Source: Dacryopinax spathularia (lineage: Eukaryota > Basidiomycota > Dacrymycetes > Dacrymycetales > Dacrymycetaceae). From it: DNA of 64,000 nt. Positions 29,351 through 48,741 of the stretch are shown one piece after another (position 1 is the first letter of the stretch; each line of letters starts with the position of its first letter). The DNA lies in contig JBBPFI010000015.1 in NCBI GenBank assembly GCA_037974965.1, positions 35,001 through 99,000 on the forward strand, read 5' to 3'. A program made the position numbers and the translations under genes. Under the pieces are notes generated by a model. That model saw nothing but the letters and a program-made list of their open reading frames with translations, was not told where the DNA came from and ran no database searches.

Positions 29351-30358
29351 GGTTGGCTTGTTGAGGAGGAGGACAAGGTGGAGGCACGCGACCAATGTAG
29401 GGGATGAGTATGGTATGGTGAAGGGACGACGTCGGATAAATAGCCGGAGATGAGCGTTATTATCAGGGTGAAGACGTTGAGAAGGCGGCGAGTTGCGGTT
29501 GGGGTGAAGAGAGGGGGAATGAAGGAGGACTGATCGAGCTTGAATAGTCTAAGTAGAAGCAAGTATGTGATTGAATTGTGTTGGCCCGCAGTGAGCTGCG
29601 TAGTTGAACGACGAGGAGGTTGGGCTATGGTGAGGTTTGGAGTGTGGTCTATATTACATCTGCGTGCGTGTGTGTGTGTGTTGGGGTGCACTGTGTTTTG
29701 GGTTGGCACCCTTCCGCGCTTGGGGGTTGTGGCCGATGGGCGCGGCTGCCGTACAGCGCGGCTGATGTCATCACATCGCCAACACTTCCAGGTCCCCTCT
29801 CCACGAGGCCATCCAGGGAACGTGAGGTTTTGTACGGGAGCTGATATGTACGGATCCGTACAGCTCCGTACTCCATCCGTATAGCCGATTCGTATAGCCG
29901 GTAGATAGCGATAGGGACTTATTAAGCATAACGTCGTTCGATATTCTCCTCGAGCTCATCCCCCGCCCCCCTCCCCCCTTTTACACGCAAGCATCCTACG
30001 AACAGCCAACTTGTACTCTAAGCCTCCCACTACGACTTCAATCCTTCCCTGTGCCCGAGCTGTCTTGCCCACTTGATCGCCATGTTGCCCGAAGAAGTGG
30101 TCGACGTCCCGAGCGGGACGAACGATATCCATACACACAGTGAGTGAATCGTTTCATTCAATGACTACATCACTCACTGGATAGCAGATTGTCTCGCACA
30201 CAATAGAAGACGTACATCTGCCCTGCGACGGAATTGTGAGTCAATTTTGCCGCAGATACTCGATAGGGGTTGCACTCACCGAAATTCCAAGATCATCTTG
30301 GTCCCTATTCCCGTGCCACTCAGTCGCATCGCATCGCTCATCTCTCACCTCGACCACC
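29351..30358. other. Intergenic; first copy of the dispersed motif
   Basis: About 1 kb. A short ORF begins at 30083 (MLPEEVVDVPSGTNDIHTH) and runs straight into a minus-orientation copy of the dispersed motif at 30120-30138, then a GTGAGT that could be a splice donor; a tiny spliced gene or 5' leader is possible but unproven. 29860-29900 contains repeated CGTACAGCTCCGTAC-like words. Confidence 0.35.
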
Positions 30359-31509
30359 ATGGATCACTTGTACGCCATGGTATCCGAGAGCTGGCTCCAT
30401 AAGAAGACTCTGGCAAGCAAGAAAAACGACGATACATCGGAGCAAGCAACACAACGTGAGCCGGCGAACCCCGGTTTGGAGGCAAAGAAGAAGGAGGAGA
30501 AAGGTAAAGCGAGGGAAGTTGTCGCCATTCCGCTCGAACAGCTCGCCGAGGGCAGTCGTACCGCCCCAGCAATCCCTACCGCCTCGCCTTCCCTTGCCGT
30601 ATCGACCAGCTCGACCGTTCGCGAGCTTTCCGACTTCTACAAGCCCGCCGATTACGCCGAACGGCGCCTGAAGGGTTGGCTCGGCGATGGAGTCCTGTTC
30701 GCGACCCTTGGCGCGAACGAGCTGGGAGCGATGGCCGGCGGGCCAATGATCAAAGCTGAGGAAGGGCCGGATGGTGCAGACGAGAAGGTGGAAAGGGGGC
30801 GGACACAGGGGGCGGATGGTGTTGTGAGGGATGAGCACGCCGGGCTGGCGGACAGCAGGGCCACGTCTCGCGAGTTGGAAGAAGGACAGGTACGTCCTCA
30901 ACGATCGATATCCATGTGTGTATGGATATCGTTCGGCTTGCCTGTCGAAGTCTGGTGCTGACACTCGCGCAGGGCGGCCCCTTCAGTGAAGGTCCCCGCA
31001 GACGCCGCATCTTCGACCTGACGGCACGCGAGTACGATGAGGCCGTTGCTGCAGAGCGTGACGCAGGCGCTCGCCGCGGTGCAGCTGACGTCGACGCTGT
31101 GTACGACAACCTTGCGGCCATTGCTCGAGCTGGCTGGGATGACGCAGCGGAAGTTTGGTTGAGGACGTCTCGTAACTGGCCGTACGTGGTTGGAGCCGTC
31201 AAGAGGATTCGCGAGCACGGCTGTCACCCTCGCCTCTTTTGCTATGACTTGGGCGGCCATGTCTACTGGCTCGGTAAGGTGATCTATTGCATCTTCGACA
31301 CTCTCCTTCGGGCCCTCTGGGACTTCCGCCGCATCATCCTCGTTGCGATAAGTAAGTCATTTTGTTTTCACTAGTCGAGCTACTTGCTGACATATAATAT
31401 CCTAGTTTTCTATGTCGTCCTTCTCAAGGTCTACCATGTGGATGCTGTCAAGCTGGCGATTGGCATCTTGAAGGCAGCGCCTGGGTGGATTCAGAAGAAG
31501 ATCGAATAA
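30359..31509 (+). CDS. Orphan protein with C-terminal hydrophobic segments
   Basis: Three exons (30359-30889, 30973-31351, 31406-31509) give 337 residues; phase is exact at both joins. No family is recognised. The N-terminal half is charged and disordered (AKKKEEKGKARE, VERGRTQGADG). The second exon has a helical charged part (EGPRRRRIFDLTAREYDEAV, AADVDAVYDNLAAIARAGW) and the end has two hydrophobic stretches (WLGKVIYCIFDTLLRALW; RRIILVAIIFYVVLLKVYHV), so a tail-anchored or two-pass membrane protein is plausible. Intron 1 (30890-30972, 83 bp) contains a copy of the dispersed ~20 bp motif inside a perfect short inverted repeat, the only copy inside an intron I consider certain. Confidence 0.65.
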
Positions 31510-31666
31510 GGTACTCGTTCCTACGCGCAATAGCATTCCCCTGTCACTGTATATCCGAGATCCCTGCACGTCAATAGATTCTTGTGTTCTTGACTTGAGA
31601 AACTGCCGATCGATTCGCGAATCCTCATAGCTGTCCTCATTTGACTGCTTGACCGAGTGAGCACGC

Positions 31667-32001
31667 CGTTCGATATCCATACACACGTTCATATTGATCT
31701 CGCCTTGGGGACCGAACTCGTCCTTGTCCGTCTGCTGCCCAGAAGCAGAACGGACAATATCCATACACACATCAAAGTCGCCTGCCCTTGTCCGTCTGCT
31801 GCACAGGATAATGCTGTCATAGTGCTGCGACCGGTCCAACAACAATTCCTATTGTCACTTTCGGTCCATTAACATTTAGTAGGGACTTGCGTTTCTCGCT
31901 ATGGGTACGGCTAAGCAAGCCGACCGATATCCATCCACACCTCTAGGCCGAACGATATCCATACATACACGTCGGACACGCCGAGCGTTATCCATACACA
32001 C
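31667..32001 (-). repeat. Cluster of five dispersed-motif copies
   Basis: Five minus-orientation copies of the motif (CCGAACGATATCCATACACA and variants) lie at about 31667, 31751, 31921, 31948 and 31981, all downstream of the stop at 31509. Between the first two pairs the word CTTGTCCGTCTGCTG appears twice (about 31720 and 31790); its reverse complement is part of the 60 bp minisatellite at 45305-45522, so the two loci share a longer unit than the motif alone. Confidence 0.8.
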
Positions 32002-32319
32002 AACGCGGCTCCGAGTGGACTCCTATCGCGCCGTCATTGTGCCAGGCGCAATATACAGGGGAAAATAATGATTATTAAAGACTTTAGTTAGGGATAACAT
32101 ATATAACGGGGTGAAGGATGAGGTCAAGTGAGAAACTTGAAAAGGAACGTGGGACTGACACCTAACGAGGCGGTGTGCGCAGGTAAACAATGGTAACGCG
32201 CGCGGGCATCTTGCCAAATCAAAACACAGAGAAATCGCATAGGTGATAAAAGGTGATTAGCTTAAGAGTGCTGATGACCATGTCGACGAAGGTATAAACA
32301 TGACATCTTGATATAACCA

Positions 32320-34376
32320 TCACTTCTTGATCTTCTTGGGGCGGCGCTTTTCGCTTGATCTCGGGTTATCTTTCTTGCCATTCATCTTCATCACTCCCGG
32401 CTGACGAGCATCCTTCTCTTCACCGACCTTGATCCGGAACGACGACCAGCTTTTCGCAGGGGTTTTCTTGAAGCTGTCGAGAAGGCTGCTGCTAGCTTCT
32501 TGAAGAACGTGGACTTGATCGTACCACGTTTGGCGAGGAACACGATGACCAACCACTTTAGCCAGAGCAACTTCTAACGACTTCCGTTCTTCATTCATTT
32601 TTTGCGTGATCTCGCTAATCTGATGATGGACGACGCCGAAGGATGCGTTGCCAGGCCAGGCCCCACGGATCATAGCTCCATCTTCTGTTGGTGTACTCGC
32701 TGAAGGACCATTCCGGGGGTTGCGCTCGGCTGCAGAAGCGGAGGTCGAGGGGGTGCTCGGCTTGTGTATTATCTCGCCGAAAGATGGAAGGGAGTCATCT
32801 GTCCCAGTGGATCGCGAGCGCTTTCGATTCGGGGGCTCATCATCATCCGATGATATCATGATGATCTCTCGCTCCTTCATCACATCACGCTCCTTCCTCA
32901 TCTCTCTCTCCTTCAACACCACTCCATTTAAGGAAGTCCCTTTTTGGCTAGGGGCCCCTTTGGTAGTGCCAGGGCTGATGCTTCGTGTGGAATCGATATC
33001 TTGGGCGGTGAGCTTAGGTCGCGTAGTCGCCTTCTTCGGTGACGCAGCAGACCTGCGATGAGCGTCTCGCAAGGGGGTGGCATACGCGAGACGTAGCATC
33101 TCCTCCTGGACATGCGGAAGATCGACTTGCACCCCTGGCAGGCAACATAGCAGTCTCTCGTCTCTTTTGACATTACGCAGGGCATCGAGGCCATAGACTT
33201 CCCAGCGATTTGACTCCGGATTGAAGAGCTCGAGTGACCCATAAGGCTTCCCAAGCCTGCCTCGAATCCATTCGTGAATATGGGCGTCCCATTCCTTCAC
33301 GCGCGTTGTGAGGCCACTCAAGCCCGCTTTAGCACGTACGCCTGGGAAAGACAGGGCATCGTCCTGCCATTGTATACTTAGGTCAGTATGCTTGTTGTAC
33401 TGAGAACATGGGACGTTACACACCTCTGTCAAGATGACCACGGTAAACTGTCTCCCTCTCTCCTCTTCTCTTTCTCTCGCTTCTTTCTCCTGTAGCTCAA
33501 TGCGTGCTTTCTCATCCCTTCCTCTCTCTCTCTCGAGATCATAGCTCTCGGGTACAAGACGTCCCAATGGACGGGCCTGCCGCGGTGTAGCTGGGCCTTG
33601 GAAAGCGCGAGGCAATCTGGTCGGAGTTGGAGATTCCATTCGCCAGTGGGGTGTACGACGCTGCTGAGTCGACGTTGGTTGGGCATTGTCATCTGCATCC
33701 AACACTATGACGTCGATACCAGCAGGAGTTCCTGCTTGAAGCCGCTCACTCCTAACAGCTGGCTTGCTCTCGACCCAGGGTGAGCGGGAAAGCTTGTGCT
33801 TCGAACATTCATAGCGCTCTCCGTCTTCCGCGTTCTCCTGAGCGATCAAGCAACACGTTCGGCAGTACAGCTTCGGGCAGTCGGCGTTCAGCGGTTTCGT
33901 GCAGCCGTTCTTGCAAGTATTCTTGACCTTCCGGGGAAGCTGCGATGGCCTTGCACTATACGAGTCGGTGTAGAAGGGTTTCTCTGGACTGCCACGAGGT
34001 GGACTGGATGGGTAGTCATAGAGGGGATGGCCGGCCAGCGCACCCTGTACGTGTGCAAGGTAAGAGGATGGAACGGGGTTGGAGATCCAAGTGAAACTGT
34101 TATCGAAGTGCCCGATGTCCGCACACTGTTAACCATGTCAGATAGGCACATACATGAGCATGATTTCCTACTCACGCGGACAAATATCTTGTATTTATTA
34201 AGGGGGTACTTGCCCTTCCGATTGTATGCAACAAAGGGTATGCACAAGGCGCCGCATGCCTCACAGTTATGTGGCGCAATTTCGCTCAATCCCCAGAGGT
34301 CCATCATGATAGTCACATCCCTTGGGTAACTGTTGCTGTCAAGCTCGGGCTTCACATCCGGTGTGAAGGCGGACAT
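32320..34376 (-). CDS. Orphan cysteine-cluster protein
   Basis: Three exons (34376-34176, 34125-33424, 33363-32320) with 50 and 60 bp introns give 648 residues. No named family is assigned. Exon 1 has a CEACGALCIPF pair (possible zinc site). Exon 2 carries a compact cluster: NTCKNGCTKPLNADCPKLYC then RTCC, ending CSKHK. That Cys/His spacing resembles short cysteine-rich modules common in orphan families of mushroom-forming fungi and suggests zinc binding; DNA binding would be a guess. A charged coiled stretch follows (ERERGRDEKARIELQEKEAR), then a domain-like region (RVKEWDAHIHEWIRGRLGKP, NRWEVYGLDAL) and a basic tail (EKRRPKKIKK) fitting a nuclear protein. A ~60 bp piece of exon 2 recurs at about 37500. 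Confidence 0.62.
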
Positions 34377-34609
34377 GTTGTAGCTTGGGAGACAATTCAA
34401 AGTTAAAGTAATAGTGGAAATAATGAGAGAGCAAGTACGTCTACCCGCGTAGGAAAAAAGCGACGACCAAACCATCAAGGGATTTTAGGTTCCTTGTTGA
34501 TGCGCACCGACATCATTAATCCATGCTACAATGGATGTGCAACGCATGGGACACACATTATTTTATTATAAGATTCCAACACAAAATACGAGCCTTTCGA
34601 TACGAGCGC

Positions 34610-34790
34610 CGCCCCTTGTGAGGACCACCAGAAACTGGCGCCATAAGAAACTAGCGCCATCAGATATGGGCGCCAGTATAATCTGGCGCCCATAGATACT
34701 GGCGCCATTCGAAACTGGCGCCATCCGAAACTGGCGCCATCCGAAGTAAGCGTCATCCGAAACGAGGTCCATTCAAACGATCCCCATTCG
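34610..34790. repeat. Short tandem repeat around GGCGCCA
   Basis: A ~16 bp unit close to GAAACTGGCGCCATCC repeats about ten times with drift (third positions and spacing vary). Similar units recur at 39290-39450. The core GGCGCC is palindromic. Confidence 0.8.
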
Positions 34791-36040
34791 AGACTAGAAC
34801 CGACTGATCTGGGTACCTGCAACCTGATTCTGTGTCAGGCGTCCCGAAGTTCGTTTAGAAGAGCACATCAGCACATTTTATTAAGAGATGTAGCCGCACA
34901 AATGAACTAGATATAAATTGGCGGAGAATGTGTATAGCTGTTCGGCCTGAGTTCTTCTCCGAACGTGCCTTCATAATTTGAGCTCGGCCTGCAGCTCAAA
35001 TTATTAATCGCCAAGATCAAGTAGCCAGGACAAACATTCAACCCTGAGTCTGTACCAGGTCGTTGCGAGCGCTCGCATCGAGGCTGCGAGAGGACCGCAT
35101 GGTGGGTATGGATGTCGCTTGGCTTGGCTTGGCTTGGGGTCGTCTTTGGAACGCATGGGACGCGTCCAAGATCGTACGTTCGACCGAGCTGGCAATGTGC
35201 AATTAATTATAGTGAGCCGCACAAACACCGAGAGCGCACTCACTATGGGTATGGGCATCGATCAGCCTGTCCGGCTTGCGAGAAATGCATGATCTGATTT
35301 CAAGCTGACATCCGGTGGTATATAAAGACTTGCGGTGTGCAGTTAGCTATAGCCGCACTAGCCCAATACAGAAGTGAACAAGACGTACTGTGCAGGTATT
35401 TCGATAGGCTTGAGGAGATATGTGTATGGATATCGCTAGGCGCTCCTCTGGCCAAGCTGTGCTTCGCCGCTCCACTTGATGGCTCGCTTTTGCTACACAT
35501 TGCCAGAGGGTTGCTCAGTTGGAACCAGCACGCATGCAAGAATGCAAGACGAGCGCACTGTGAGTATGGATATCGCTCGAGTTGCATGGCTCATTGGCAG
35601 TAATTGAAGCGAAGCATGCAGTCGAATGAAGTCTTCCTGCTCTCAGGGATTTTGGTGGCATCCAAAAGACCTGCCTACATGTAGTTGACATCCAGTAGGC
35701 GTAGCAGCTTGGTGTGTTGAGCATTAGTCGTGGCAGTTCTAGAATGCGTATAAGTGAGCAGACAGACAAGTTGTGTGTGTGGATATCGGTCGGCCTGTTC
35801 AGGACGTGTGTATGGATATGGTTCGGCCTAGATGTGTGTATGGATATGGTTCGGCCTGGACGTGTGCAGGATATCGTTCGGCGATCTCATTCACAGTCCT
35901 ATTGAGAGCGCGACTGAATGTGCTTCTCCTCAACTTGCCCAAGCTTGCAATGGAGTGAACTCTTCCATCTTGGATAGATCATGAGGGACTCTATATAGAC
36001 ATTTCAGTATGTAGTCAAGCCAGCCTAGTAACACACATAC
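34791..36040. repeat. Accessory non-coding region with motif copies
   Basis: No gene is supported. Plus-orientation copies of the dispersed motif lie at about 35421, 35561, 35774, 35807, 35835 and (partial) 35863, with weaker forms near 35103 and 35243. A (CTTGG)n run occurs at about 35121-35140. Confidence 0.65.
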
Positions 36041-36044
36041 CTCA

Positions 36045-36720
36045 CGACTGTCGACGGCACATATGCGGTAGGATGCGCGATGAGGGTGATATGAGAAGGT
36101 GAGAGACAAAGGATAGAACGAAGGAGGGCGATATGATGAAGGTGAAATGATGAAGGTAAGTGTGAGGATGAAGTATCAAGAGATGAAAAAGGAGACAGAT
36201 ACGAGACGAAGAAGGGGAGAGATAGATAGAAGGAGAGATAGAAAGTAGGAGCAAGAGAATATGAAGGAGCGAGAGACGCAGAAGGAGAGTGTGATGAAGA
36301 AGAAGAGAGAGAGGGAGAAGTGGAGAGACGCACAAGGAGCGAGAGATGCAGAAGGAGAGAGTAATGAAGAAGAAGAGAGAGATGAAGAAGGAGCGAGAGA
36401 TGCAGAAGGAGCGAGAGATGCAGAAGGAGAGAGTGATGAAAAGTGGAGAGAGATGAAGGAGCGAGAGATGGAGAAGGAGAGTGAGATGAAGGAGAGAGAG
36501 ATGAAGAAGGAGAGAGAGATGAAGAAGGAGAGAGAGGTCAAGGAGGAGAGATGAAGAGGCGAGCGATGCGGTAGGATAAATAGGGATTGACGAGAAGTAA
36601 GGTTGTGGATGTGAGAGAATTGCAGAGCTGGAAAGGGATACCGGCCCACACAGCTTGGGTGAAGAAGCGAATAAAAAGGAATAGCCAACGCGCGAGAGAG
36701 CAAGGGTCTGCAGGGAAGCA
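36045..36720. repeat. Purine-rich GA minisatellite
   Basis: The plus strand is almost purely A/G with repeats of AGAGAGATGAAGAAGGAG type, strongest from 36240 to 36555. Both the plus frame (Lys/Glu/Arg-rich) and the minus frame (Ser/Leu-rich) stay open for this reason, so the ORFs are not evidence for genes. Shorter relatives lie at 46945-47080 and 47870-47900. Confidence 0.85.
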
Positions 36721-37392
36721 AACGAAAAGATATCAGCGGCGATGAAGAGAGTCTCAGAAACAGAAGCACGTACAGAACGAGCGGGGCAGTAACAGCTACA
36801 GATGACAGCGATACTGTAGGGATGAGACCAGACTGACTACAGACGCGTTAGTGCCTTACACCCCGGGTAGAATGAGAAACAAGCAAGTGAACTCCGATAG
36901 CGTCAGGAAAGCAGAAGGAGGACAAAGGTAGAGGATTGGACGAGGTAGGCATACTTAATTGACGGAGAGTAAGTCCACGCCGCGCGAGTTGGAAGAGAGC
37001 CGAGCCCTTACCCTATCCGTGTGTATGGATATCGTTCGACCAGGTCGCTCAGGGATGCAGGTATGCGCGCGGCGAATGTGTGTATGGATATTGTTCGGTC
37101 TGTCTGCCTGCAGGGTGGTGTGCTGTGGGAGGCGAAGCAAGCCAAGCACATGCCGAGGACTTTAGGACCAGTTCGTGCGCATACAGGATGCGTCTGGGTG
37201 TCGAATACAGGGATGTAGGGATGGGCGACGCGAATGTGTGTATGGATATTGTTCGGCCTGTCTGCCTGCTGGGTGGTGTAGTGTGGAAGGGGAAGCAACC
37301 CAAGCGCCTATCGAGCACTTTAACGCGAGTTCGCGCGCATACAGGTTGTGTATGGATATCGTCTGGCTTGCCTGTACAGCGAGCGATGCGGA
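36721..37392. repeat. ~157 bp tandem duplication built on the motif
   Basis: Motif copies at 37020, 37079, 37237 and 37347 head units that continue with a shared body (GTCTGCCTGC, GAGG/AGGGGAAGCAA, GTGCGCATACAGG). The unit from 37079 to 37236 (158 bp) is repeated from 37237 with about 75-80% identity by eye. No gene is supported between 36721 and 37392. Confidence 0.7.
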
Positions 37393-38613
37393 CTACAGCA
37401 CTAGTGTCAACCATGATAGATACGGGCACTTGAAAGAAAGCGCACGGGAAGAGAATGGCGGACACAAAGCCATGAGGGTGTTGTGTGCTTGCCCGAAGCC
37501 TTTCACACCTAACAGCTGGTTTGCATTCGACCCGAGTAGGGTCCCAGTCTTTGGAGCAAGCCCCTTCGCTTTGGGTGAGTGGGCCTTGCAGGGCTGTAGT
37601 TGTTCACTCGTGCACGTCGGCATGTGCTCATACGGGATGTTCAGTTCGCAGTCGATATTGATAACTGTGATGATGAGATCTGCTTGGATTAGGGTGAAAG
37701 GGTCGCCTTCGGTGTAGTGTACAGCGAGAGTATCGGACTAGGTCAGTACGTTAGAGTGCGGCGAGTACGCTTTCCATGGAGACGTACAACGGCTAAGCGG
37801 ACATTGGCGAGCCACTTGTCAACACCCCCTTCGTGATCGTGGAGAGGCGACTCGACGTTATTGACAAGGCGTAGCATTCTTGTTATGTACAGAGGAGAGT
37901 AAAGGCGTCCGGCGCGCAAGTCTCTCTCTTGATCATCGTCAGCTCGACTTGTCCGACCTGCGGAAGGCGAGCGCGAGATATGCTTGGTGCACCGCAGGTT
38001 CGTACGCCTCCTTCGCCCTGTCCAGCATGCGTGCTCTCCTCAGTTTACGATGCTTCCCCAAGGGAGGCGCTAAGCGGATCTTGCAAGCAGCTACAGCCTG
38101 GCGGGCTTCTTCAGCCTGGCGAGCTTCTTCAGCCTGGCGAGCCATCTCGTGGCATTGATGGTCTTCAGTAGAGCGCGTATCTTCCAATGCTATAGACCTG
38201 ACCTCCCCTGCAGGGTCTCCTAGTGTGCTGTCTCCTGGGATCGGCTGACATACCGAAGGATCGTCTGGACATAAGATTGTTGACATTGTCGGTTCCCCAC
38301 CACGAAGTCCTACAAGTGCCTGTGAAGTGCCGCCTCCTATTGATGGATTCGTTTGGTAGGGCAGTTTTCGCGGAGCCCGTTTGAGGAGGTATTCTGGTGG
38401 ACACCAACCCCCAGATTGCAGCGGCCTTGAATGCTTTGTTAAGTCGATTCGTGAAGGACGGAGCTGAGGCGGGGCACTCCTTCTGAATCGATGACGCGAA
38501 CCTCGCTGAAGGGAGTGGGAGTGCGCGGGAGAATGCATTGGGGAGTCTTCCGCGGAGGATGCGGACAGGTATCTGCAGCCGCCGTCTGCGAGGTCCTCGT
38601 CGTCGAATGGCAT
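37393..38613 (-). pseudogene. Shortened inverted paralogue of the gene at 42001-45102
   Basis: ATG at 38613 opens a 224-codon frame ending at 37939 with a RQAEEARQAEEARQA stretch like the longer RQAEAARQAEAA repeats of the 42001 gene. Further on, in another frame, 37900-37560 reads LYITRMLRLV and VDKWLANVRLAV, then after an intron-like GTACGT..CTAG gap YTEGDPFTLIQADLII; these match the other gene's LYIEGVLRTV, VDKWFANVRLTV and YTEGVPFTLNQAELII. The middle (about 1.2 kb in the other copy) is absent and the two parts are not in one frame, so I call it a truncated paralogue or pseudogene. A fragment near 37500 instead resembles exon 2 of the 32320-34376 gene. Confidence 0.55.
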
Positions 38614-38870
38614 CGTATGGAATGTGAGTGAACGGACGAGGGCAGCGAATACTTGGTATATGCTCAGTACACGCGGAGGCGGCAGGCACAAACACTTAAC
38701 GTACGCACCTATGAGAGGTAGAAGACTGAACTTCTCCTCGTTCACCTCGGGCTCCCTTTCCCCGCACTATCGCGGCTCCTTCCCTAACTTGCTAGCAGAA
38801 TAGTTGGAATCGTGGCCGCGAGTAAACGAGGACGGGATGGGATGGGCTTCGGGTTGAATTGCCGATGTAA
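38614..38870 (-). promoter_or_regulatory. Leader/promoter block shared with the 42001 gene
   Basis: Read on the minus strand, this block contains AACCCGAAGCCCATCCCATC, TTCTGCTAGC, the GAGGTGAACGAGGAGAAGTT word and TTAAGTGTTTGTGCCTGCCG. The same words in the same order lie upstream of the plus-strand gene at 41740-41955, so the two loci share their 5' region. Whether it is promoter, untranslated leader or a first exon (the frame stays open from a GTG) is unresolved. Confidence 0.6.
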
Positions 38871-39961
38871 GTCTTGGACACAAAGGATTGGTGGAATTGC
38901 GGTGTATATGGAGGGAGGCTCAGTGATAGCAAACCTCGCGCTGTTGGCTCACACCAGTGAGATTACTGGAGCTGGGTTTATGAGACCTTGAGCTACAGTG
39001 CTGCAATGGGTTTCGCTGGACGAAGAGGAGATAACGACAGATCAGATGCAACGTGTGGCGTGTCACCCTAGGGATAAACATGCAACACGTAATCAGCACG
39101 TGACACCGCGCGTATCTTCCCATCATAATGCAGGCGTATAGCGAGCGCAATACTCCTTTATAAATAAGCGTGGTCGTTCTTGTTTGCGATCTAATGGCTG
39201 AGGTGACGATTACTATTGTGGCTGATTTAAAATAGTATCCATATCTGCCGGCTACTGTTTCCAATGACTACCGTTTCTTCTGTCGACCGTTTCTTGTGGC
39301 TCCCATATCTTATGCCTCTCACTTCCGACGGCGCCGGTTGGAAACGGTTCTGGTTATTGATGGCTCACAGATCGGATGGCTCTCAAATCAGAAGGCGCTC
39401 ATATCGGACGGCGCCAAGATCGGACGGCTGTGGAATCGAATGACGGTCAGATCGAAAGGTGGGTGCCTACCAGTCTTGACCGCACTTTCATGGCTAGAAT
39501 GAAGACTGAACTGAACATAGGAACACTTACACACCGGATTATTAGGGTGGGCCTTGGCACTTCTCGGTGGTGCAAGGCATCAACACCAGCGCGCAAGAAC
39601 CTCAGACCTTTCTCATGATTCCACCGACTCTCAAATCACAGAAGAACTCCAATCACAGAAGAATCTGCTGTGAAAACCACAGAACAGCGGTACAAGCAAT
39701 GAATGCATTATAGTGATCGGATAGCCGATAACGGCTGAATACAGAGGTAGTATGGATCCACATCACCATACTACGCAGCCAGAGACAAGGACAGTGCGTG
39801 AATACAAACATTCCGAGATGCTACCTACGAACTCCGACTAACTACACAGGGATGCCGGTTGAAGAGGCGCATGGATTGAGGAACTTGGGCAAGAAGTCGC
39901 AGAAGCGAGCATAGATTGTCGTCAACCCACGCTCTTCACGGTAGCGCCTGCGATCTTCCGC
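38871..39961. other. Intergenic, includes a short tandem repeat at 39290-39450
   Basis: No gene is supported. At 39290-39450 about ten units of ~16 bp around GATCGGACGGCGCC/TCA-like words repeat with drift and resemble the 34610 array. The rest is unique, with mild AT-richness near 39650-39840. Confidence 0.5.
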
Positions 39962-41344
39962 TCAAGCCTTCCGGTACGCGTCCAAGGCCGCGCTGCTCCT
40001 ATATACTTCATCGTTATATATCCAAGGACGCGAGTCCAAAGCGTTTGGCTGTACGGAGGGAGGAGTCTTCGTCTTTGTAAGTGCATGTGCGGCTCCAGCG
40101 GCGCACAAATCGAGTTCCCCATCAGGGTAGAGCAGACTACGGATAGTCTGCTCACGAAAAGGGTCCATTCGCATGTACGGGGGAGGATAGGCGTCCAATT
40201 CGCAAGCCTCGTCAGGGCCGCCAACGCTGGCATTGGCTGCATCATAGCCCGTCTGGTCCGCTTGCATGGTGCCAACCGGATTCATCCCTCTTTCTTCTGC
40301 ATCCTGCTCATCCACCGCACGACGCAAGGCAGCGACCTCTGCAAGACGCCCTTGCACAGCAACCTGCAGGGGTAGAGAGTCACAGTGAAACGCACGTAGG
40401 TAATCAGCATATGCATCAAGCCGGCGTTGGGTGATTGCGAGATTGGGATTGCGAGAGTAACCACGTGCTCGGCGCGAAGACCCTTTGGTGACAACTGCGG
40501 TCCTTGCAGAGCTAGGCAGAGCATGGCGGGGCGCGGAACGAGTGTCTTCGCATCCTGGCACAGGGTCGTGTGCGAGTGTATGGATGTCGTTCGGCTTGGC
40601 CTGTCCTGCAGAAGAACCGAGGATAGACGGCGCAGTTCCGGCGCCTTCCAACCCCCCAGCAGGAGTGGCAATGTGTGTATGGATATTGTTTGGCTTGTCT
40701 TCTCCCGCAGAAGAAGCGAGGACGCCCCCAGCAGGAGTGGCAATGTGTGTATGGATATTGTTCGGCTTGTCTTCTCCCGCAGAAGAAGCGAGGACGCCCC
40801 CAGCAGGAGTGGCAAGGTGTGTATGGATATCGTTCGGCTTGGCCTGTCCTGCAGAAGAACCGAGGATGGATGGCGCAGTTCCGGCGCCCTCCAACACCCC
40901 AGCAGGAGTGGCAATGTGTGTATGGATATTGTTCGGCTTGTCTTCTCCCGCAGAAGAAGCGAGGATGCCCCCAGCAGGAGTGGCAAGGTGTGTATGGATA
41001 TCGTTCGGCTTGGCCTGTCCTGCAGAAGAACCGAGGATGGATGGCGCAGTTCCGGCGCCTTCAACCCTCGCAACAGGAGTGGCAATGCGTGTATGGATAT
41101 CGTTCGGCTTGGCTTCTCCTGCAGAAGAAGCGAGGACGGATGGCGCAGTTCCGAGCCTCTCACGGAAGTCGACGTCGATGGTCGAGCGTGTATCGGTATC
41201 GATCAGACTGTCTCTCTCCGCAGACAGAGTATTCATAACAGAGAAGGGGCGGCGATACGGGGCGTCCATACTGCAGTTGTATCTTGATAGATAAGACTGA
41301 AGTGCGGTGGTTGCTTCACAACTGGTCGAGAAGTAAGCTCGCAT
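39962..41344 (-). CDS. Orphan protein with IHTH tandem repeats
   Basis: A 460-residue ORF on the minus strand from the ATG at 41344. No domain is recognised. Residues ~85-265 are a tandem array of 33- and 24-residue units in the order 33-24-33-24-24-33, each with a KPNDIHTH or KPNNIHTH core followed by ATPAGG and SSAGED/SSAGQA. The codons of PNDIHTH are exactly the dispersed motif. The C-terminal part is non-repetitive (NLAITQRRLDAYADYLRAF, PLQVAVQGRLAEVAALRRA, YPPPYMRMDP) and looks like real protein, so I favour a gene over a chance frame, but the repeat is open in several other frames too and the 5' end is uncertain. Confidence 0.5.
   Translation of the reverse strand: MRAYFSTSCEATTALQSYLSRYNCSMDAPYRRPFSVMNTLSAERDSLIDTDTRSTIDVDFRERLGTAPSVLASSAGEAKPNDIHTRIATPVARVEGAGTAPSILGSSAGQAKPNDIHTHLATPAGGILASSAGEDKPNNIHTHIATPAGVLEGAGTAPSILGSSAGQAKPNDIHTHLATPAGGVLASSAGEDKPNNIHTHIATPAGGVLASSAGEDKPNNIHTHIATPAGGLEGAGTAPSILGSSAGQAKPNDIHTLAHDPVPGCEDTRSAPRHALPSSARTAVVTKGSSRRARGYSRNPNLAITQRRLDAYADYLRAFHCDSLPLQVAVQGRLAEVAALRRAVDEQDAEERGMNPVGTMQADQTGYDAANASVGGPDEACELDAYPPPYMRMDPFREQTIRSLLYPDGELDLCAAGAAHALTKTKTPPSVQPNALDSRPWIYNDEVYRSSAALDAYRKA
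40575..41107. repeat. 72/99 bp minisatellite carrying seven motif copies
   Basis: Plus-orientation motif starts at 40575, 40674, 40746, 40818, 40917, 40989 and 41088: spacings 99, 72, 72, 99, 72, 99. The 99 bp unit contains an extra GGCGCAGTTCCGGCGCC block. All spacings are multiples of three and the units lack stops in most frames, so long ORFs appear on both strands. Confidence 0.92.
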
Positions 41345-42000
41345 ACTTGAGCTAGTCCTCCCACTCACGGATGCTGCAATTCTTCAATGAGCTTCACGAG
41401 ATACTGGATGGGTTTCTGAGGAAGATGGTCGTAGGATGATGAGGAGGAGGTGGATGAGTTTGAATGACAGGGGGTATTTGGCTCCGCAGAGCGGTGCTGA
41501 CGAAGGCGTCAGAGATGCATGTGACAGTCACTGGGTGGCGTTGTTACGGGGATGCAGTGGCGTTGTAGATCAAGCCAATGTCAGAATCAGGCGTGGTGTA
41601 CTCTAATGACAAGACCGCCATAGAGATTAGACTGTGTCAGAACATCATCCATATCCGCACATTAATACCCAAACTTTACCTTTATTCATAGGCTTTCTCA
41701 GCCACATACCTCCACTGCCAATATCCTTGCAACTCACATTACCTCCCAACGTACATCCGCAACTCAACCCAAAGCCCATCCCATCCTGTCCTCGTTTATT
41801 CGCAGCTGTTCACCCAACTGTTCTGCTAGCCAAGTTAGGAGGAACCGTGATAGTGAGGGTGAAAGGAAGCCGAGGTGAACGAGGAGAAGTTCAGCCTGCT
41901 ACCTCTCATAGGTGCATACGTTAAGTGTTTGTGCCTGCCGCCTCCGCGTGTACTGAGCAGGTATGCAGTCTTCCTCCTTCGACATATCGAAGTTTTCACA
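41345..42000 (+). promoter_or_regulatory. Intergenic; shared leader block at 41740-41955
   Basis: Holds the second copy of the leader block described at 38614-38870 in opposite orientation, ending 45 bp before the proposed ATG at 42001. The 41345-41740 part has no recognisable gene. Confidence 0.55.
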
Positions 42001-45000
42001 ATGGCCAATCCTAACAGAGGACTACACTACTGGCACACCAGCAGCTGGTACAGCCAGCAACAGCATCAGCAAGAAGCCCAGCAGATATCACGGCCCGCTA
42101 CCCCCAGATATGCGCCTCCCCCCGAGCGTACCGACGCATATAGGAGCTCTTCCGGCTGTTCATCCCATCTGGCTCAGCACCAATACTACGCATACACCAA
42201 TCCAAGCAATATTGATCGAGGATACACCGCTTCCAACAATTCGCTCGCTTACCAGCCTCGTCGCCCGATGTACCCAATCCCGTCCCCGAACCAGCAACCA
42301 AGGTACAACGGACACGCCGAACAGGATCGCCAGAGGAGAGCTGCTGCGCCGCGGAAGGACCAGGCGAGGGTGCGAGACAAGGGGCAGGGTGAGGCGTCGG
42401 ACCCGGTACGGTATTCGCAACTGTCAGAGGAGGAGAAGCTGGCAAGACATCTGAGAGCGCAAGAGGCTTGGAGGCAAAGGCAAAAGGCTGAAGAACAAGC
42501 TCGTCAGGCCGAAGCTGAGCGTCGGGCCGCAGCTAGACAACGGGAAGAAGCTCGACAGGCCGAAGCAGCTCGACAGGCCGAAGCAGCTCGACAGGCTGAA
42601 GCAGCTCGACAGGCTGCCGAGCTTGATCGTCAAGCCCGAGCCCGCATGGAAGAAGATGCCCTGAGAGCTGCACGACAGCAGAAGGCTCGCGAAGCTCAGG
42701 ATGCGTTTAAGGCACGGAAGGCTGAAGAGGCCCAACTCGCTGAGGAGAAACGCAAGGCTGAAGCGATGCGGGCTGAAGCAGAACGCCGAGCCGAAGCAGA
42801 ACGTCAGGCTGAAGCAGAACGGCAGGCTGAAGCAGAACGGCAGGCTGAAGCAGAACGGCAGGCTGAAGCAGAACGTCGGGCTGAAGCAGAACGTCGGGCG
42901 GGTGCTATTCAATCTGCTGCGCATGAAGGAGGCGACTTGGAGGGAGAAAACGCCCCTGGTGGCTCAGAGGCTCCTTCCCCCGTCCAGGATATTCCTTGGG
43001 ACACTTCGCTGGATTGCACTCCTCTGCAATTCTGGGCGAAGGGCACTCACACGCCACAGAACAGTGCTGAGGAAGAACTGGAAGAACTTCTCTACTCTCG
43101 GCTTAACGAATTACACATTCTCATACTCGAAGTGCCCGAAGAAAGTGACTCGGATGAGGCTATCAGTTCCTGGTTTACGAAGGCCGCTGACTTCATGGTA
43201 AGTATGACATAATGTCGGCATTGTATTGCGCTGATGATATTCTAGAGCAAGATGGCCGGCTTTGACCTCACGAGCGGGAGACTGGCCTACCGCTATCTTC
43301 AGCATGCAATGGAGAAACTCTTCCAGCTTGCCGAGGGACTCCCTGGTCATGGCAACGATCTTCAAGTCAGGCCGGCTGACTTCAAGCTCCCTTACATTGA
43401 AAATCGAACGGAAGAGCTGCTGCGGCAGGAAGTATCCCGAATCCTCCCGCATTGGCAGGCCGATCCCGAAACCCTCATTCTTTCTCTGAAGACTCCTCAG
43501 CAAGTCGTGGACGAAATCGCTCGCAATCGGACCGCCCCTCTTCCTTGGTTCGGAGAATATGGTGATATTACGCGACCGGGGGTACAATGGCTTCTTAATA
43601 AGCGAGGCGAGTTTCTAGTGAGTGACAACCCACGGGCGAGCAACATGTATGCTAAGGCGCATCATAGCAATGCTTTCTCGACATGTGGGATGACCCTCGT
43701 ATCCCTCAACCCAACGGGGTATCCATCTTGGAAGAAGCGTACGCACTGGTGAAAGATGAAGCAGTTCATCTTTTGGCTTTCCACGTCATGGAAGGGTTCG
43801 ATGACCCTTTGCCCCGGAGGGCGACAGCTGGCGGACACTTCGCTTGGGATGAATTAGAACGCCGTATACCGAAAACGAAGGCGGATAGGCTATTTAACTG
43901 GGATCGCTACTCGTCACTCTACATTGAAGGTGTGCTACGCACTGTGGACACCAATAAGCCCAAGCCACCTCTCCATAACAATGAAGAGCGGGTTGACAAG
44001 TGGTTCGCCAATGTCCGCCTAACTGTGGTATGTGTTTATGGAAAGAATACTCGCCGCACTCTAACGTTCTGATCTAGGCTGACACTCTCGCTGTACACTA
44101 CACCGAAGGCGTCCCTTTCACCCTAAATCAAGCAGAACTTATCATCTCTATTCTTCAAAATGTCTTCGATTGGGTCATCTCCGAGGAACGGTACAAACTG
44201 GAGATCGAGTATCGGCACATTCCGAGATGGGCGCTTGAACGACTACAGGTCTTCGTGGGCGGTCGCTGGCGTCAGAAGCCGGCTGGTCCCATTAAGCGTG
44301 CGCACCTCATAGGAGAAGATCAGAACCCAATGACATTTGAGGAATTCGATCGCCGCTATCTCATGCATACCAAAGCTAGGCGTAAGCAGCTTGCGGCTCA
44401 TCTGGACCAGCAACCAGACGGCTGGCAAACAGTGGACGACAATCTGAAGCGAATGAGACGATCGAAGAACAGGATCGACCCTTTCCCTCGCCATGTCCTG
44501 CGATGCGCTTTCTTTGAAATGCCCGTATATTCGCTGAGCAACTTCCCTACTTTCGATGAAGTCAAAACTCAAGGGGAAGTTATCATAGAAGATCCAGGAC
44601 TTCCAGCCAAAATTTTCGTAAGCCGCTCGATCCGCAGGGCTAGAAACTGTCTGACTACGCATTGGTATAGCTCGCTTACGGAGAGAAAGCCTGCCACACC
44701 TGTCAAATACATAAGGAGGCACGCGTGGGCGTAAACCGAGTTTGCAGACGCTGGGAGCGCCAATGCTGCATCAGATGTAGGGATAAAAAAGCGGTCTGCA
44801 TGTGGCATAACAACGTCTACGGGAATAGTAAGTGCTTTTCTGCTTGGATCTCCCAGACACTAACCGTCATAGTCTCCTACAAGTATTACGACCTCGAAGG
44901 GCCGCGAAATCGCGGAATTCCGCTGCACGTCCTCGACAATCTCATTCGTGAACGCTGGTTCGAGGGGAATCTGGATTTCCCCGGTCCTCCCCCTCCAGAG

Positions 45001-45102
45001 ACGCGCAGGGAGCCGAACTATACAGGTCTTATCAATGCCAAAGGGAGCAAGGTTCTTTCCGAGAGTGCTTACTTTCGCAAAAACAAAGCTGTTCCCTTTT
45101 GA
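42001..45102 (+). CDS. Orphan coiled-coil protein with C-terminal cysteine cluster
   Basis: Six exons (42001-43197, 43246-43617, 43668-44027, 44078-44617, 44671-44827, 44873-45102) join in exact phase to 951 residues. No family is recognised. Residues ~1-120 are Gln/Pro-rich and disordered; ~140-300 form a long charged helix with RQAEAA and AERQAEAE heptad-like repeats. The middle is an apparently folded alpha/beta region (YRYLQHAMEKLFQLAEGLP, EELLRQEVSRILPHW, VDKWFANVRLTV). Near the end is a Cys cluster, ACHTCQ..VCRRW..QCCIRCRDKKAVC, reminiscent of zinc-binding modules in fungal orphan proteins. Its leader and part of its body are duplicated in inverted orientation at 37.4-38.9 kb. Introns of 46-53 bp with CTGAT/CTAAC branch sites make it a credible expressed gene. 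Confidence 0.65.
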
Positions 45103-45545
45103 GACTTTAGAGGGCTGGAAGCAGTGTGAGATACGCACGTCAGGCATGTGTACAGATATTGTTCGGCCTGCCTGTACCCAGTAGACTGACGAAATGGAAT
45201 ATCGGGTGAACTGCTATGTAGGCGTATGTCGAGCGAAGGGGCCGAGCTCACGTCCTCCTCCGTTTCTGATAGCAACGCTAGCCTGGATGTCTTAAGAGTG
45301 GTTTCAATGCGTGTATGGATAGTGTTCGGTCTGCTTATTTGCAGCAGATAGACAAGGCCGACTTCAATGTGTGTATGGATAGTGTTCGGCCTGCTCTTGC
45401 GCAGCAGACGGACAAGAACAACCTCAATGTGTGTATGGATATTGGCCGGTCTGCTCTTGCGCAGCAGACGGACAAGAACAACCTCAATGTGTGTATGGAT
45501 ATTGGCCGGTCTGCTGTACAAATGTAAAACGAGTACAACAAGTGA
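45103..45545 (+). repeat. 60 bp minisatellite, ~3.6 copies, plus one lone motif
   Basis: Units start at 45305, 45365, 45425 and 45485 (exactly 60 bp apart). Each has the motif (TGTGTATGGATAnTG...) and then GTCTGCTCTTGCGCAGCAGA, CGGACAAG. A lone diverged motif is at about 45147, 45 bp after the stop of the preceding gene. The array fills the gap between two convergent genes. The same longer unit occurs inverted at 31.7-31.8 kb. Confidence 0.9.
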
Positions 45546-47825
45546 CTAGATCAAAGCTGCAGAGGGAATGAGATGTGGGGACTGTCCGCGCTTAGCCAGC
45601 TCGCTGACAAGAAAGCGATTGTGGACCTTGATAACCTCATCCAAAAAGAACTCGTAACGAACCGGCGTCATCTCCCGGACGATGGGATGAAAGTTGTTGA
45701 GCCATGCGTTGATTTGTTCGCATTTCGAGGAGTTAAACGTCCATACTTGATTCTCCTCGTCGACTAATTCGGGATACGCAGCCGCATTGCAGTGCAGGCC
45801 GCAGTACCAGTCCTTTTCAGAGTGCTTCGACTTGAAATGGAAGATATCAACAACGAGCGCAGTGTCCTTGAAGTACTCCTTCAGCAGGGGCCGTTCGTGA
45901 ATGTATTTGTGAAGCTGACAGTTATTGTCATAGAATAACACGTCAGGGAGGGATGCAGCTGAAGGAAAGACGGTGCACAGAAAATCCTAAAAAAGAGTAA
46001 GTCAATGGGGCAAGAAGAGGGAGGGAGGTACGAACAGCTACAGATGCCAGCGACTCAGCTCCGTAGAATGTACCTCGAGCCAGGATAATGCCGCACGGCC
46101 GTACCACCAGTTGCTCATTATGCGTCCTTCGGCGAGTGAACCGTGCACGCAATTTTCTGTGGGGCTGAGAAGAGGATTGGGAAGGCAGCCGGCTACCAAG
46201 AGAAGTTTCACCGCCTTCTATCTCTCCTTCTATGTCCATATCGCCAGCGAGCTCGTCATGTAAAGGCGGATTTGCACCTTGGAAGTAGGCATGAGTCCGG
46301 TTAAGGCGTCTCTTAAGTAACTGGAAGGACTCCTTCTCGGACCGGAACTTGGATTCAAGAGCGGCATGGCTGCGGATCGAGCATGTTTGATATCCGTCTC
46401 GTGCCCGTGCCGAACAACCTTCAACAGCGCAAGCCACTTCCAGATGAGCGTGCATCAGGCAATGGCGGGCACGATTGGTGATGAGAGGATTGGCGCAGTT
46501 GTGTTGAGCACAACATGGCCTTCCTATAGCCACACCATCGGTAATGGCGCAGGATAACATATCTGGTAGACGAAATTGAGCTAAAGCACAGGGAATGGAA
46601 GACTGGCTTACACTGGCGTCCGTCGCGTTCAAAAAATTTCCTGCAGATGTCGCAAGCATGCGGCCATTGCTCCTGCCCTTTCTCGGCAATGAATATATTT
46701 CGCTCAAGCATTGCCCTCATGAGTCGCTCCGTTTGTGTGAGTCCGGGGAGGTGCGGAAGCCGGAGGCGGCTACCTTGCTCGTTATGATGTAATAGTAGGG
46801 CGTATAAATCGAACAGGTCTGCGATATACTCTGCGCGCAGGAGAGGAGGTTTGTAAGCGCCTTTTTCAGGGTATCGGGGTGTGCCAAGAGTACTATTATA
46901 TACGAGAGCATTTGCGCTCATCGACGAACTGCACAGAGTGTGAGTTAGCAGAACAGGAGCGATACAGAAGGAGGGAGAGATACAGAAGGAGAAAGAGATA
47001 CAGGAGGAGGTATTGAGATAGAAGGGGAGAGTGAGACAGAAGGAGAGGGAGACAGAAGGAGAGCGCGATGCAGAGATGATGAACGTACTGGGAAAAGACG
47101 GTCATAGATCGGAATAGCTCGCAAAGTTTGTCTTCAAACAGAAAGTGTTTTTCCCCTTGAATTACTTGGGGTACGCCAGGGTAGTATATTCGATACATAT
47201 GGCCGGACGCGTCAGGTTGACAGGCGTAGTTCATGTGGTAGGTGCAGGGACAGGAGGGGCACCGGAGCGAGGTTATGATCACCGGGAGTGCGCCTTGGGA
47301 AACGGTGTAAAGAGTGGCCCTGTACCTGCGTGGATCGTATAAACGAGCCTGTCGGTGATGGTTGACGAATTCGGGACAGTAGGAGTACGTGCAGACGCAA
47401 GTGGGCGGATAGAACTCCTCAACAGCTGGGCACAGTGAGCAGAAAGAACGAGCTCCGAAGGCATGAGGCTAACCGAGATCGAAAGACTGTCCGTGCTCTG
47501 CAAAGATGCGATGATGGTGAACAAGCGGCGGGCATAGGGTAGTGAAGTCCCTGTCGGCAACCCACGCCGTATCCCGGAAGATATCCCAGAGAGCGATGGC
47601 TTGTGCGCGGCTGACTTTAAGACCAATGGCAAGAAGTCCGATCACGGATATCGGCAGCTCAGTTGGTGGATCTTCAAATCCGGCTACACCAGTGTCTTGT
47701 TGCCAGCAGATTCGATTTTGCAGACTGCGCGCAGCGAAGACGAACTCGATTGCTTGCTCAACAGTAATGTCGCCTATAGCTGGTCGAAAGCGTTTCAGAA
47801 GTTTGTAGAGCTGAGTCAAGTGCAT
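45546..47825 (-). CDS. KDZ-associated protein: CxC5/CxC6-like clusters plus transposase-like core
   Basis: Five exons (47825-47474, 47425-47089, 46928-46612, 46562-46036, 45986-45546) join in phase to 657 residues. The cysteine clusters are CVCTYSYC..CPSCPCTYHMNYAC (exon 2), HACDICRKFF (exon 3) and GRPCCAQHNCANPL..CLMHAHLEVACAVEGC (exon 4). They match the layout of CxC5/CxC6 modules attached to KDZ-type transposases. The C-terminal part has RRTHNEQLVVRPCGIILARG, DVLFYDNNCQLHKYI, VVDIFHFKSKH and WTFNSSKCEQINAWL, like the catalytic-core region seen in such fungal proteins. It may be a domesticated or immobile relative of a KDZ DNA transposon; I see no clear terminal inverted repeats. Intron 2 (46929-47088, 160 bp) is enlarged by GA-rich repeats. 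A start upstream of 47825 cannot be excluded. Confidence 0.8.
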
Positions 47826-48741
47826 CCCTCGGCGAGACAGATCGATACCAGATGCAGACGAAGTGAGAGATATAGAAGGAGAGAGATAGAAGGAGAGAGA
47901 TAAGCGCTGGCCGATAATAATGTTCCCACGGAAAGGTAACAGTCATGGGACCAGGAAAGTTTATGATTACGCATGTAGCTTAAGTGAAGCGGACCCTTAT
48001 CGGCTTAGACGCGTCGCAGTGGCGGTACCGGCTATTGGGAGTGTACGGCCCTGTACGGACGCCGTACATTTGGCTCCGTACAAAAGCGCACGGAACCTGG
48101 AGGTACTGCTCTCCACCACCCCCTGTATCCCCCCGGTCCATCCCAACATCGCAAGCCATCCTACACATATCCACTGTCGGCCCCCGGTTCGTCCCCTTCA
48201 ATCCAGGCCCTACATAACTGAACTGCTTTGTCTATCAGCGACAGCAATTTTCAGCGGGTCTGCTAACCGCTCCGCGACCAGCTTTTGCATACACGGTCGA
48301 ACATCATCCCAGACATTATTATACTCCGGCATAGCATGTCTATTCACTGAGGTGTGTACCTACCTCACCGGGGTTCTTCCTGAGTGAGAATCGATTCCCA
48401 CGGCCGGTCCCAATCCGGTTCCCTGACGCGCTTGGCAGTCGCGCCGCAGTGAGGGAGTTGGTCGTCCCTGAGTCTCGCGACCTTCCTCGCGACTTTCATA
48501 TGCCTTTGGGCGGGAGACGAGCCGCTTGTCTTTATGCTGCGGACATCCTGCATATATGCGCCTTGCACTGCGCGACTGCTTCGGAACTGCGCCGTCTACC
48601 TCTCACAAGGATGAGACTACACTTGCAAACGCGTTTGAGACTGTAACCATGCAGCCGGTTCACAATTCTTTCATTATTCATTCAGGCGGTACACTTGATT
48701 GATAGCGGCATAAGAACAGCGAGACACTCGGCGAGATTGCC
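47826..48741. other. Intergenic, no recognised gene
   Basis: About 900 bp. A short GA repeat at 47870-47900 continues the AGAAGGAGAGAGAT family. Nothing else is supportable; I checked 48375-48450 for a tRNA and found no cloverleaf. Confidence 0.4.

Follow-up and report, generated by a model that had tools for sequence, protein, structure and literature searches.

The locus described here raises the question of why a motif of about 20 bp should recur about 29 times within 15 kb, in an intron, in intergenic DNA and in coding sequence. It lies in a window of 64,000 nucleotides from Dacryopinax spathularia (assembly GCA_037974965.1, contig JBBPFI010000015.1, positions 35,001 to 99,000), and coordinates given below without a contig are positions in this window. 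The preliminary description had placed the motif at 30120-45510, with no copy noticed elsewhere, and had proposed either selection on the DNA or RNA itself or a very short mobile repeat.

Distribution of the motif

Scanning with the pattern TGTGTATGGATATCGTTCGG (~20 bp; up to three mismatches unless stated) confirmed the dispersed repeat, with 28 matches between 30118 and 45509 and 0 in 100 dinucleotide shuffles. Weaker copies lie at 35103 (four mismatches) and at 35246 and 41187 (five each), and the copy at 35863 is partial and absent from the matches at up to six mismatches. Beyond 30.1-45.5 kb, the window holds just four matches, each with six mismatches.

A genome-wide search, which had been proposed together with the motif, gave 132 matches in 29.2 Mb (24 contigs) and 0 for the reversed control. 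Among the 100 matches listed, 99 lie in five related elements and 1 outside them (C6:979754). The preliminary remark that no copy was noticed outside 30120-45510 agrees with the window, apart from the four weak matches; in the genome, copies occur in related elements. The interval itself contains a real motif, but it is actually part of one mobile element that has copies, as well as relatives with motifs of their own. The natural unit around the motif is a transposon at 29805-48108, rather than the interval first described.

The family I transposon and its genes

The borders of this transposon, which we call family I, are as follows.

29797-29804: left target-site duplication, CTCTCCAC (border comparison)
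29805-48108 (C15:64805-83108): KDZ-type DNA transposon, family I, 18,304 bp (sharp homology borders, differing flanks)
29805-29875, plus strand: left imperfect terminal inverted repeat, GAGGCCATCCAGG...TTTTGTACGG (compared by eye)
48038-48108, minus strand: right imperfect terminal inverted repeat, CAGTACCTCCAGG...TTTTGTACGG inward (compared by eye)
48109-48116: right target-site duplication, CTCTCCAC (border comparison)

Two further copies of family I, at C14:101561-120144 and C6:1054834-1073606, also have sharp borders and unlike flanks. They differ from each other at 11 positions in 18,566 aligned bases, and the window copy is about 0.8% divergent from both. Imperfect terminal inverted repeats of about 70 bp (by eye) are present. 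The target duplications of the three copies, read as 8 bp, are CTCTCCAC, CAAGGGGC and CATGCCCG; a length of 7 bp is also possible in family I, as the first C may instead belong to the element as its last base. Target duplications of 8 bp, as for Zisupton, were read in 5/5 elements with both ends in hand.

The following genes were recognized within the element.

30359-31509, plus strand: gene A (homologues in families II and III, weaker ones elsewhere in the genome)
32320-34397, minus strand: gene B (tblastx between families; cysteine-rich stretch)
39965-41344, minus strand: gene D (open frame, 473 aa)
41863-45102, plus strand: gene E (several exons, start uncertain; tblastx between families)
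45546-47942, minus strand: transposase gene with CxC5, CxC6 and the C-terminal part of KDZ (Pfam profile search)

In the transposase, CxC5 scored 79.1 bits (cut-off 26.9) and CxC6 78.6 bits (cut-off 27.5); the KDZ domain (PF18758) was matched by its C-terminal part alone, at 25.9 bits and E 9.7e-6 (cut-off 26.6). The elements are filed under KDZ because of CxC5/CxC6, this near-threshold KDZ match and their ends. A genome-wide profile search for PF18758 listed 52 matches, none within elements of families I-III, and a genome search for TET/JBP profiles gave four weak matches, all below the cut-off and none in these elements.

Genes A, B and E are backed by tblastx between families. No Pfam match was obtained for A and E in the frames tested, and the cysteine-rich stretch of gene B resembled DUF702 below the threshold (E 0.0024, 18.8 bits, cut-off 20.6). 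A PDB sequence search with the gene B protein returned 0 sequences up to E 1, and a structure predicted from its single sequence was unusable (mean pLDDT 41). Gene D is an open frame of 473-570 aa in 6/6 copies of families I, II and III, with 473 aa in the window copy and 513 and 570 aa in its sister copies. The window copy of gene D stops ~40 codons before that of the C14 copy, at an equal number of repeats.

Other repeats were observed in and around the element. Upstream of gene B, a 16-bp tandem repeat, CCATCAGAAACTGGCG, occupies 34625-34763, and a BLAST-similar sequence is present in family III (C5:705327-705484). A second dispersed repeat of these elements, purine-rich on one strand and with an 18-bp, GAAGGAGCGAGAGATGCA-like unit, was seen at 36203-36557, 32870-32919, 46956-47062 and 47860-47902, in some cases in or near the transposase gene, and also at C14:120.5-129.7k. 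The 5' sides of gene E (41863 onward) and of a reading frame at 38 kb (37939-38766) form an inverted duplication with a near-identical peptide, VNEEKFSLLPLIGAYVKCLCLPPPRVLS, in opposite orientation. Outside the element, 3.6 copies of a ~370-bp unit form a tandem array at 1573-2899.

Placement of the sites relative to genes

The motif copies are distributed over the element as listed here.

30118-30137, minus strand: one copy upstream of gene A, at a distance of 313 bp to the left end (scan)
30917-30936, plus strand: one copy within the predicted gene A intron (about 30890-30972, by eye), with an aligned site in families II and III
31666-32000, minus strand: left cluster, five copies, in the gap where genes A and B converge with their 3' ends; left inversion breakpoint region
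35103-35882, plus strand: motif cluster upstream of gene B (scan)
37020-37366, plus strand: cluster of four copies, where no reading frame is well conserved
40575-41107, plus strand: array of 7 copies inside gene D, antisense to the gene
45147-45509, plus strand: right cluster, five copies, in the gap where gene E and the transposase gene converge with their 3' ends; right inversion breakpoint region

Intronic, intergenic and coding contexts were thus all found again, in the predicted gene A intron, in intergenic stretches and in gene D, respectively. The conserved tblastx spans that we took as exons of the four genes A, B, E and transposase amount to 7,377 bp, and they contain 0 of the 29 sites and 0 of the nine clusters; by cluster, the chance of such a lack of overlap is 0.01. 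The left-end site lies 308 bp from the end in family II and 343 bp in family III, on the same strand as in family I.

Coding sequence holds seven of the 29 sites, all in gene D, where the antisense array is translated as PN(D/N)IHTH in most of its seven copies. The array spacings are divisible by 3 in all three families (I, II and III), and the peptide differs between families in parallel with the DNA motif: it is PNDIHTH or PNNIHTH in family I, mostly SIDIHTH in family II, and PNDINTN alternating with PNVFNTN in family III. We rejected selection on this peptide as the cause of the motif, since 22/29 sites are located elsewhere than in gene D, and within it peptide and DNA differ together.

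Two further observations concern the surroundings of single copies. The intron copy is adjoined on the minus strand by CATGGATATCGATCG (30902-30916), which makes an inverted pair with it, has one mismatch to the core pattern and carries the family II base. By eye, a hairpin was noticed beside several copies (45.3, 40.7 and 31.7 kb) but not beside many others, and it was discarded as a common feature.

Sister families and change of the motif by family

Families II and III were found in the genome through the motif. The family II element lies at C14:478979-497571 (target duplication GCGGGCGG) and a family III element at C5:692299-711174 (target duplication CAAACCAC), both duplications being read as 8 bp; a second family III element is located on C17. 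The motif has the version ATCGTTCGG in family I, ATCGATCGG in family II and TTGGTATTGATATCGTTCGG in family III, and it has changed in step at most sites, including isolated single ones. At up to four mismatches to the consensus of their own family, the three copies of family I have 29, 29 and 31 sites, the family II element 38, and the family III elements 21 and 20, and the reversed-motif controls gave 0 in all six elements. A genome search with the family III version gave 50 matches (control 1), of which 18 are in C5, 17 in C17, 13 in family I copies and 2 elsewhere.

For the comparison of bases, sites and cluster representatives were chosen by their closeness to the own-family consensus, which favours a contrast between families; on this basis, position 16 is T in 20/29 and A in 1/29 sites of the window copy, but A in 34/38 sites of family II, and by cluster representative it is A in 0/9 in family I versus 9/10 in family II (Fisher p 1e-4). 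Specific to family III, and counted in the same way, are the bases at position 2 (19/21 sites), position 3 (21/21) and position 8 (21/21). The same family-specific bases were recovered when families II and III were scanned with the family I motif at up to five mismatches. The family III motif is looser, and a variant that reads A, G and A at positions 11-13 occurs often.

The interior of the element (31686-45532 versus C14:480896-495044; about 31.7-45.4 kb) is inverted in family I as compared with families II and III. Its breakpoints are at the left and right motif clusters, whose orientations are opposite. All three family I copies share one orientation of the interior. The inversion is probably derived in family I, because motif orientations in three other groups of CxC elements (see below) fit the arrangement of families II and III.

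After the interior of family I had been turned, 25/31 of its sites (up to five mismatches) aligned to a site in family II and 11/31 to one in family III. The earlier remark that the core is kept while flanks differ holds in this comparison: identity between families I and II is 444/543 in motif columns versus 539/811 in flanks, and between I and III 297/515 versus 352/744, with the reservation that the alignment defining the sites may be drawn together by the motifs, so that these figures lean towards the claim. Conservation ends sharply in families I and II, after about 22-28 columns, and family III retains a few extra flank columns.

Motifs in other CxC elements

Profile searches of the genome gave 28 matches to CxC6 and 29 to CxC5. 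Four other CxC elements were sampled over the 0.8-1 kb that separates the end of gene B from that of the transposase gene. Candidate motifs were picked by eye as repeated words in these fragments, and three of them were searched genome-wide; each proved to be dispersed through its own elements.

The first, TTTGTGGAGGATTCGCAGACGC, has 40 matches (control 0), with 20 in C1:2184.7-2199.3k, 18 in C17:124.8-139.2k and 2 in the C2 element. The second, GGTGGATTCYCAGGYGACGYC, has 59 (control 1), with 23 in C4:1090-1105k and 23 in C12:171-186k; of the remaining ones, 8 are in or beside sister elements (C1, C17, C3 and C4:2135k) and 5 elsewhere (4 on C10, 1 on C13). The third, GATGTTTGTGGGGTATTCGT, has 23 (control 0), with 21 in C2:1031-1047k and 2 elsewhere. 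Matches outside CxC elements thus number 0/40, 5/59 and 2/23, respectively. Those of the GGTGGATTCYCAGGYGACGYC type on C10 (216403, 227952, 234257 and 245806) form two pairs on opposite strands with an equal spacing of 11,549 bp, which suggests a duplicated unit.

In the TTTGTGGAGGATTCGCAGACGC and GGTGGATTCYCAGGYGACGYC elements, the left part has sites in the order minus, plus, minus, as in families I-III, with spacings of 752-845 bp; in the GATGTTTGTGGGGTATTCGT element (C2), the plus site of this layout is absent among the matches. A period of 102 bp is common to the TTTGTGGAGGATTCGCAGACGC, GGTGGATTCYCAGGYGACGYC and GATGTTTGTGGGGTATTCGT elements and family III.

One CxC element, at C14:120.2-135k (borders not established), has matches to gene B, gene E and the transposase. 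Two repeat scans, of which the first recovered the motif of element I as a positive control and the second was run without a control, revealed no comparable motif in it, but just pyrimidine-rich repeats of the 18-bp type and three-copy words. A family-specific motif may therefore not be universal among CxC elements.

What the motif is likely to do

Among the uses envisaged in the preliminary description, selection on the DNA itself, through a putative protein-binding site, is the one favoured by the pattern of sites. Based on these comparisons, we consider that the motif array represents family-specific binding sites for a protein encoded by the element, with anti-silencing as its most likely role, and we would give this reading a probability of roughly 0.6. 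The transposon, the motif arrays, the in-step difference between families and the lack of sites in conserved exon spans of four genes are shown directly by the sequences, whereas protein binding of the motif, the encoding of the binder by the element and the anti-silencing purpose are parts that we infer.

According to this reading, an element-encoded protein would bind the motif of its own family at 20-40 sites per element, located in upstream regions, in an intron, in gaps between convergent genes and in one tolerant coding repeat. It would coat copies of its own family alone and act across the whole element, not just at the ends. Its most likely role would be to hold the chromatin of the element open against host silencing, as VANC does for VANDAL in Arabidopsis. 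New sites would arise through the growth of small tandem arrays, and as families split, the protein would change along with its sites.

The main rival, which we regard as unlikely yet worth serious attention, is that the transposase or an accessory protein binds the sites for transposition itself (synapsis, target immunity or pairing of the ends), much as TnpA does at its sites in En/Spm, except that the sites here are spread inward. A change of the motif along with the element would be expected here as well, the transposase gene has two cysteine clusters, and in all three families (I, II and III) one site keeps a distance of 308-343 bp to the left end. However, the sites span 15 kb and leave the final 2.6 kb on the right free, and a scan of the terminal repeats of the family I element revealed no motif copy.

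We find it still less probable that the copies are minisatellite units devoid of binding function, kept alike by gene conversion and slippage. Local tandem growth of the copies is clear, and their number varies among the close copies of family I (29, 29 and 31). Moreover, a comparison of the three family I copies shows no lower variability in motif sites than in the remaining sequence, with 4/579 motif columns varying versus 147/17,665 others (p 1.0). Conversion, however, should drag the flanks along, yet the edges of the motif are sharp in families I and II; furthermore, isolated single sites differ in step too, and similar layouts occur with unlike motifs in other elements.

A role at the RNA level, as an element or a small-RNA target within transcripts of the transposon, seems improbable to us. 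The copy in the gene A intron and those downstream of genes E and B read in the sense direction, but the motif is antisense to gene D and on the opposite strand upstream of genes B and A. Explanations of this kind, including the small-RNA target suggested earlier, fit poorly because the motif faces either way with respect to the genes.

A use of the sites in recombination that turns the interior of the element around is the least credible of these alternatives: the interior inversion of family I relative to families II and III does have its breakpoints at oppositely oriented clusters, but all three family I copies are in one orientation, the motif orientations of other elements fit families II and III, most sites are distant from the breakpoints, and ordinary recombination between inverted repeats would be enough. 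The short mobile repeat or insertion target of the preliminary description was abandoned, and so was an introner, as nearly all listed matches are internal to one kind of transposon and many align between families.

Possible host silencing

In a comparison of the three family I copies made without an outgroup, and with the C14 and C6 copies being nearly one lineage, 52 positions have CpG in both of these copies but TpG/CpA in the window copy, as opposed to 4 in the reverse direction and 85 other. The rate of differences per CpG base is about four times the rate elsewhere in this comparison. Methylation by the host, with ensuing decay of the window copy, would be expected to give such an imbalance of CpG losses (52 versus 4), and a silencing conflict between host and element is therefore plausible; this pattern bears on host methylation, not on anti-silencing.

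Comparison with known systems

The closest parallel to binding by an element-encoded protein is the VANDAL/VANC system. In the parts of the source covered here, VANC21 is described to bind YAGTATTAY, a motif that occurs densely and in one orientation in the non-coding DNA of VANDAL21, and the targets of VANC6 carry other motifs (PMC5735166). The elements studied here are similar to VANDAL, as far as it is described in the portions covered, in having a short motif that is dense in non-coding DNA including introns, same-oriented arrays, tandem growth, a motif that differs per family and high density confined to the element family (PMC5735166, PMC10398659). They differ in that VANDAL is a plant element with a motif of 8-9 bp, whereas here a KDZ transposon carries a motif of 20-28 bp (same portions of PMC5735166 and PMC10398659). 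In contrast to the VANC pattern of non-coding sites, gene D also contains a coding array. The resemblance would thus lie in how the system works; we do not claim membership, and the binder is putative.

In En/Spm, the element protein TnpA binds several short subterminal repeats. Several short sites and, in our case, a predicted binder are common to both, but the TnpA sites are subterminal, whereas those of the present elements occur throughout.

The covered parts of a study on KDZ elements give target duplications of 8 bp for Zisupton and 7 bp for Kyakuja, the latter without inverted repeats (PMC12730594). In accordance with that description, our elements have the KDZ-associated CxC domains and a Zisupton-like 8-bp duplication, besides a KDZ match just below the cut-off, and, unlike Kyakuja, they have inverted ends together with a duplication read as 8 bp (PMC12730594). 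The word "subterminal" appears 0 times in that study, and internal motif arrays are unmentioned in the parts covered (PMC12730594). Among the titles and abstract openings listed in literature searches, which took in few subscription papers, none describes family-specific motifs scattered through KDZ elements.

An insert in MSH4 of Pleurotus ostreatus with CxC5/CxC6 was linked by its authors to a Copia retrotransposon, according to the part of the paper covered (PMC7641404). Going by that partial description, it resembles the present elements in having a CxC5/CxC6 frame within a multi-copy insert that holds small repeats; unlike the proposed Copia link, the domains are found here within a DNA transposon that is complete, including its inverted ends and target duplications (PMC7641404).

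Significance

The present comparison assigns CxC5/CxC6 genes to a complete DNA transposon, and the motif provides a family-level tag for classifying these elements. In the literature covered here, in part, the described case of a protein recognising a transposon family along its whole length through a scattered motif is the plant system VANDAL/VANC. If an unrelated class of transposons had a comparable arrangement, this would suggest convergent evolution. We offer only tentatively, and with the odds somewhat against it, the broader idea that fungal KDZ transposons may have independently evolved a VANC-like code, in which each family would have its own address of 20-28 bp, spread over its non-coding DNA, and an encoded reader, and new families would arise as these pairs diverge. 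With at least six motif-family pairs (I, II, III, TTTGTGGAGGATTCGCAGACGC, GGTGGATTCYCAGGYGACGYC and GATGTTTGTGGGGTATTCGT), the genome of D. spathularia offers a test set for this idea.
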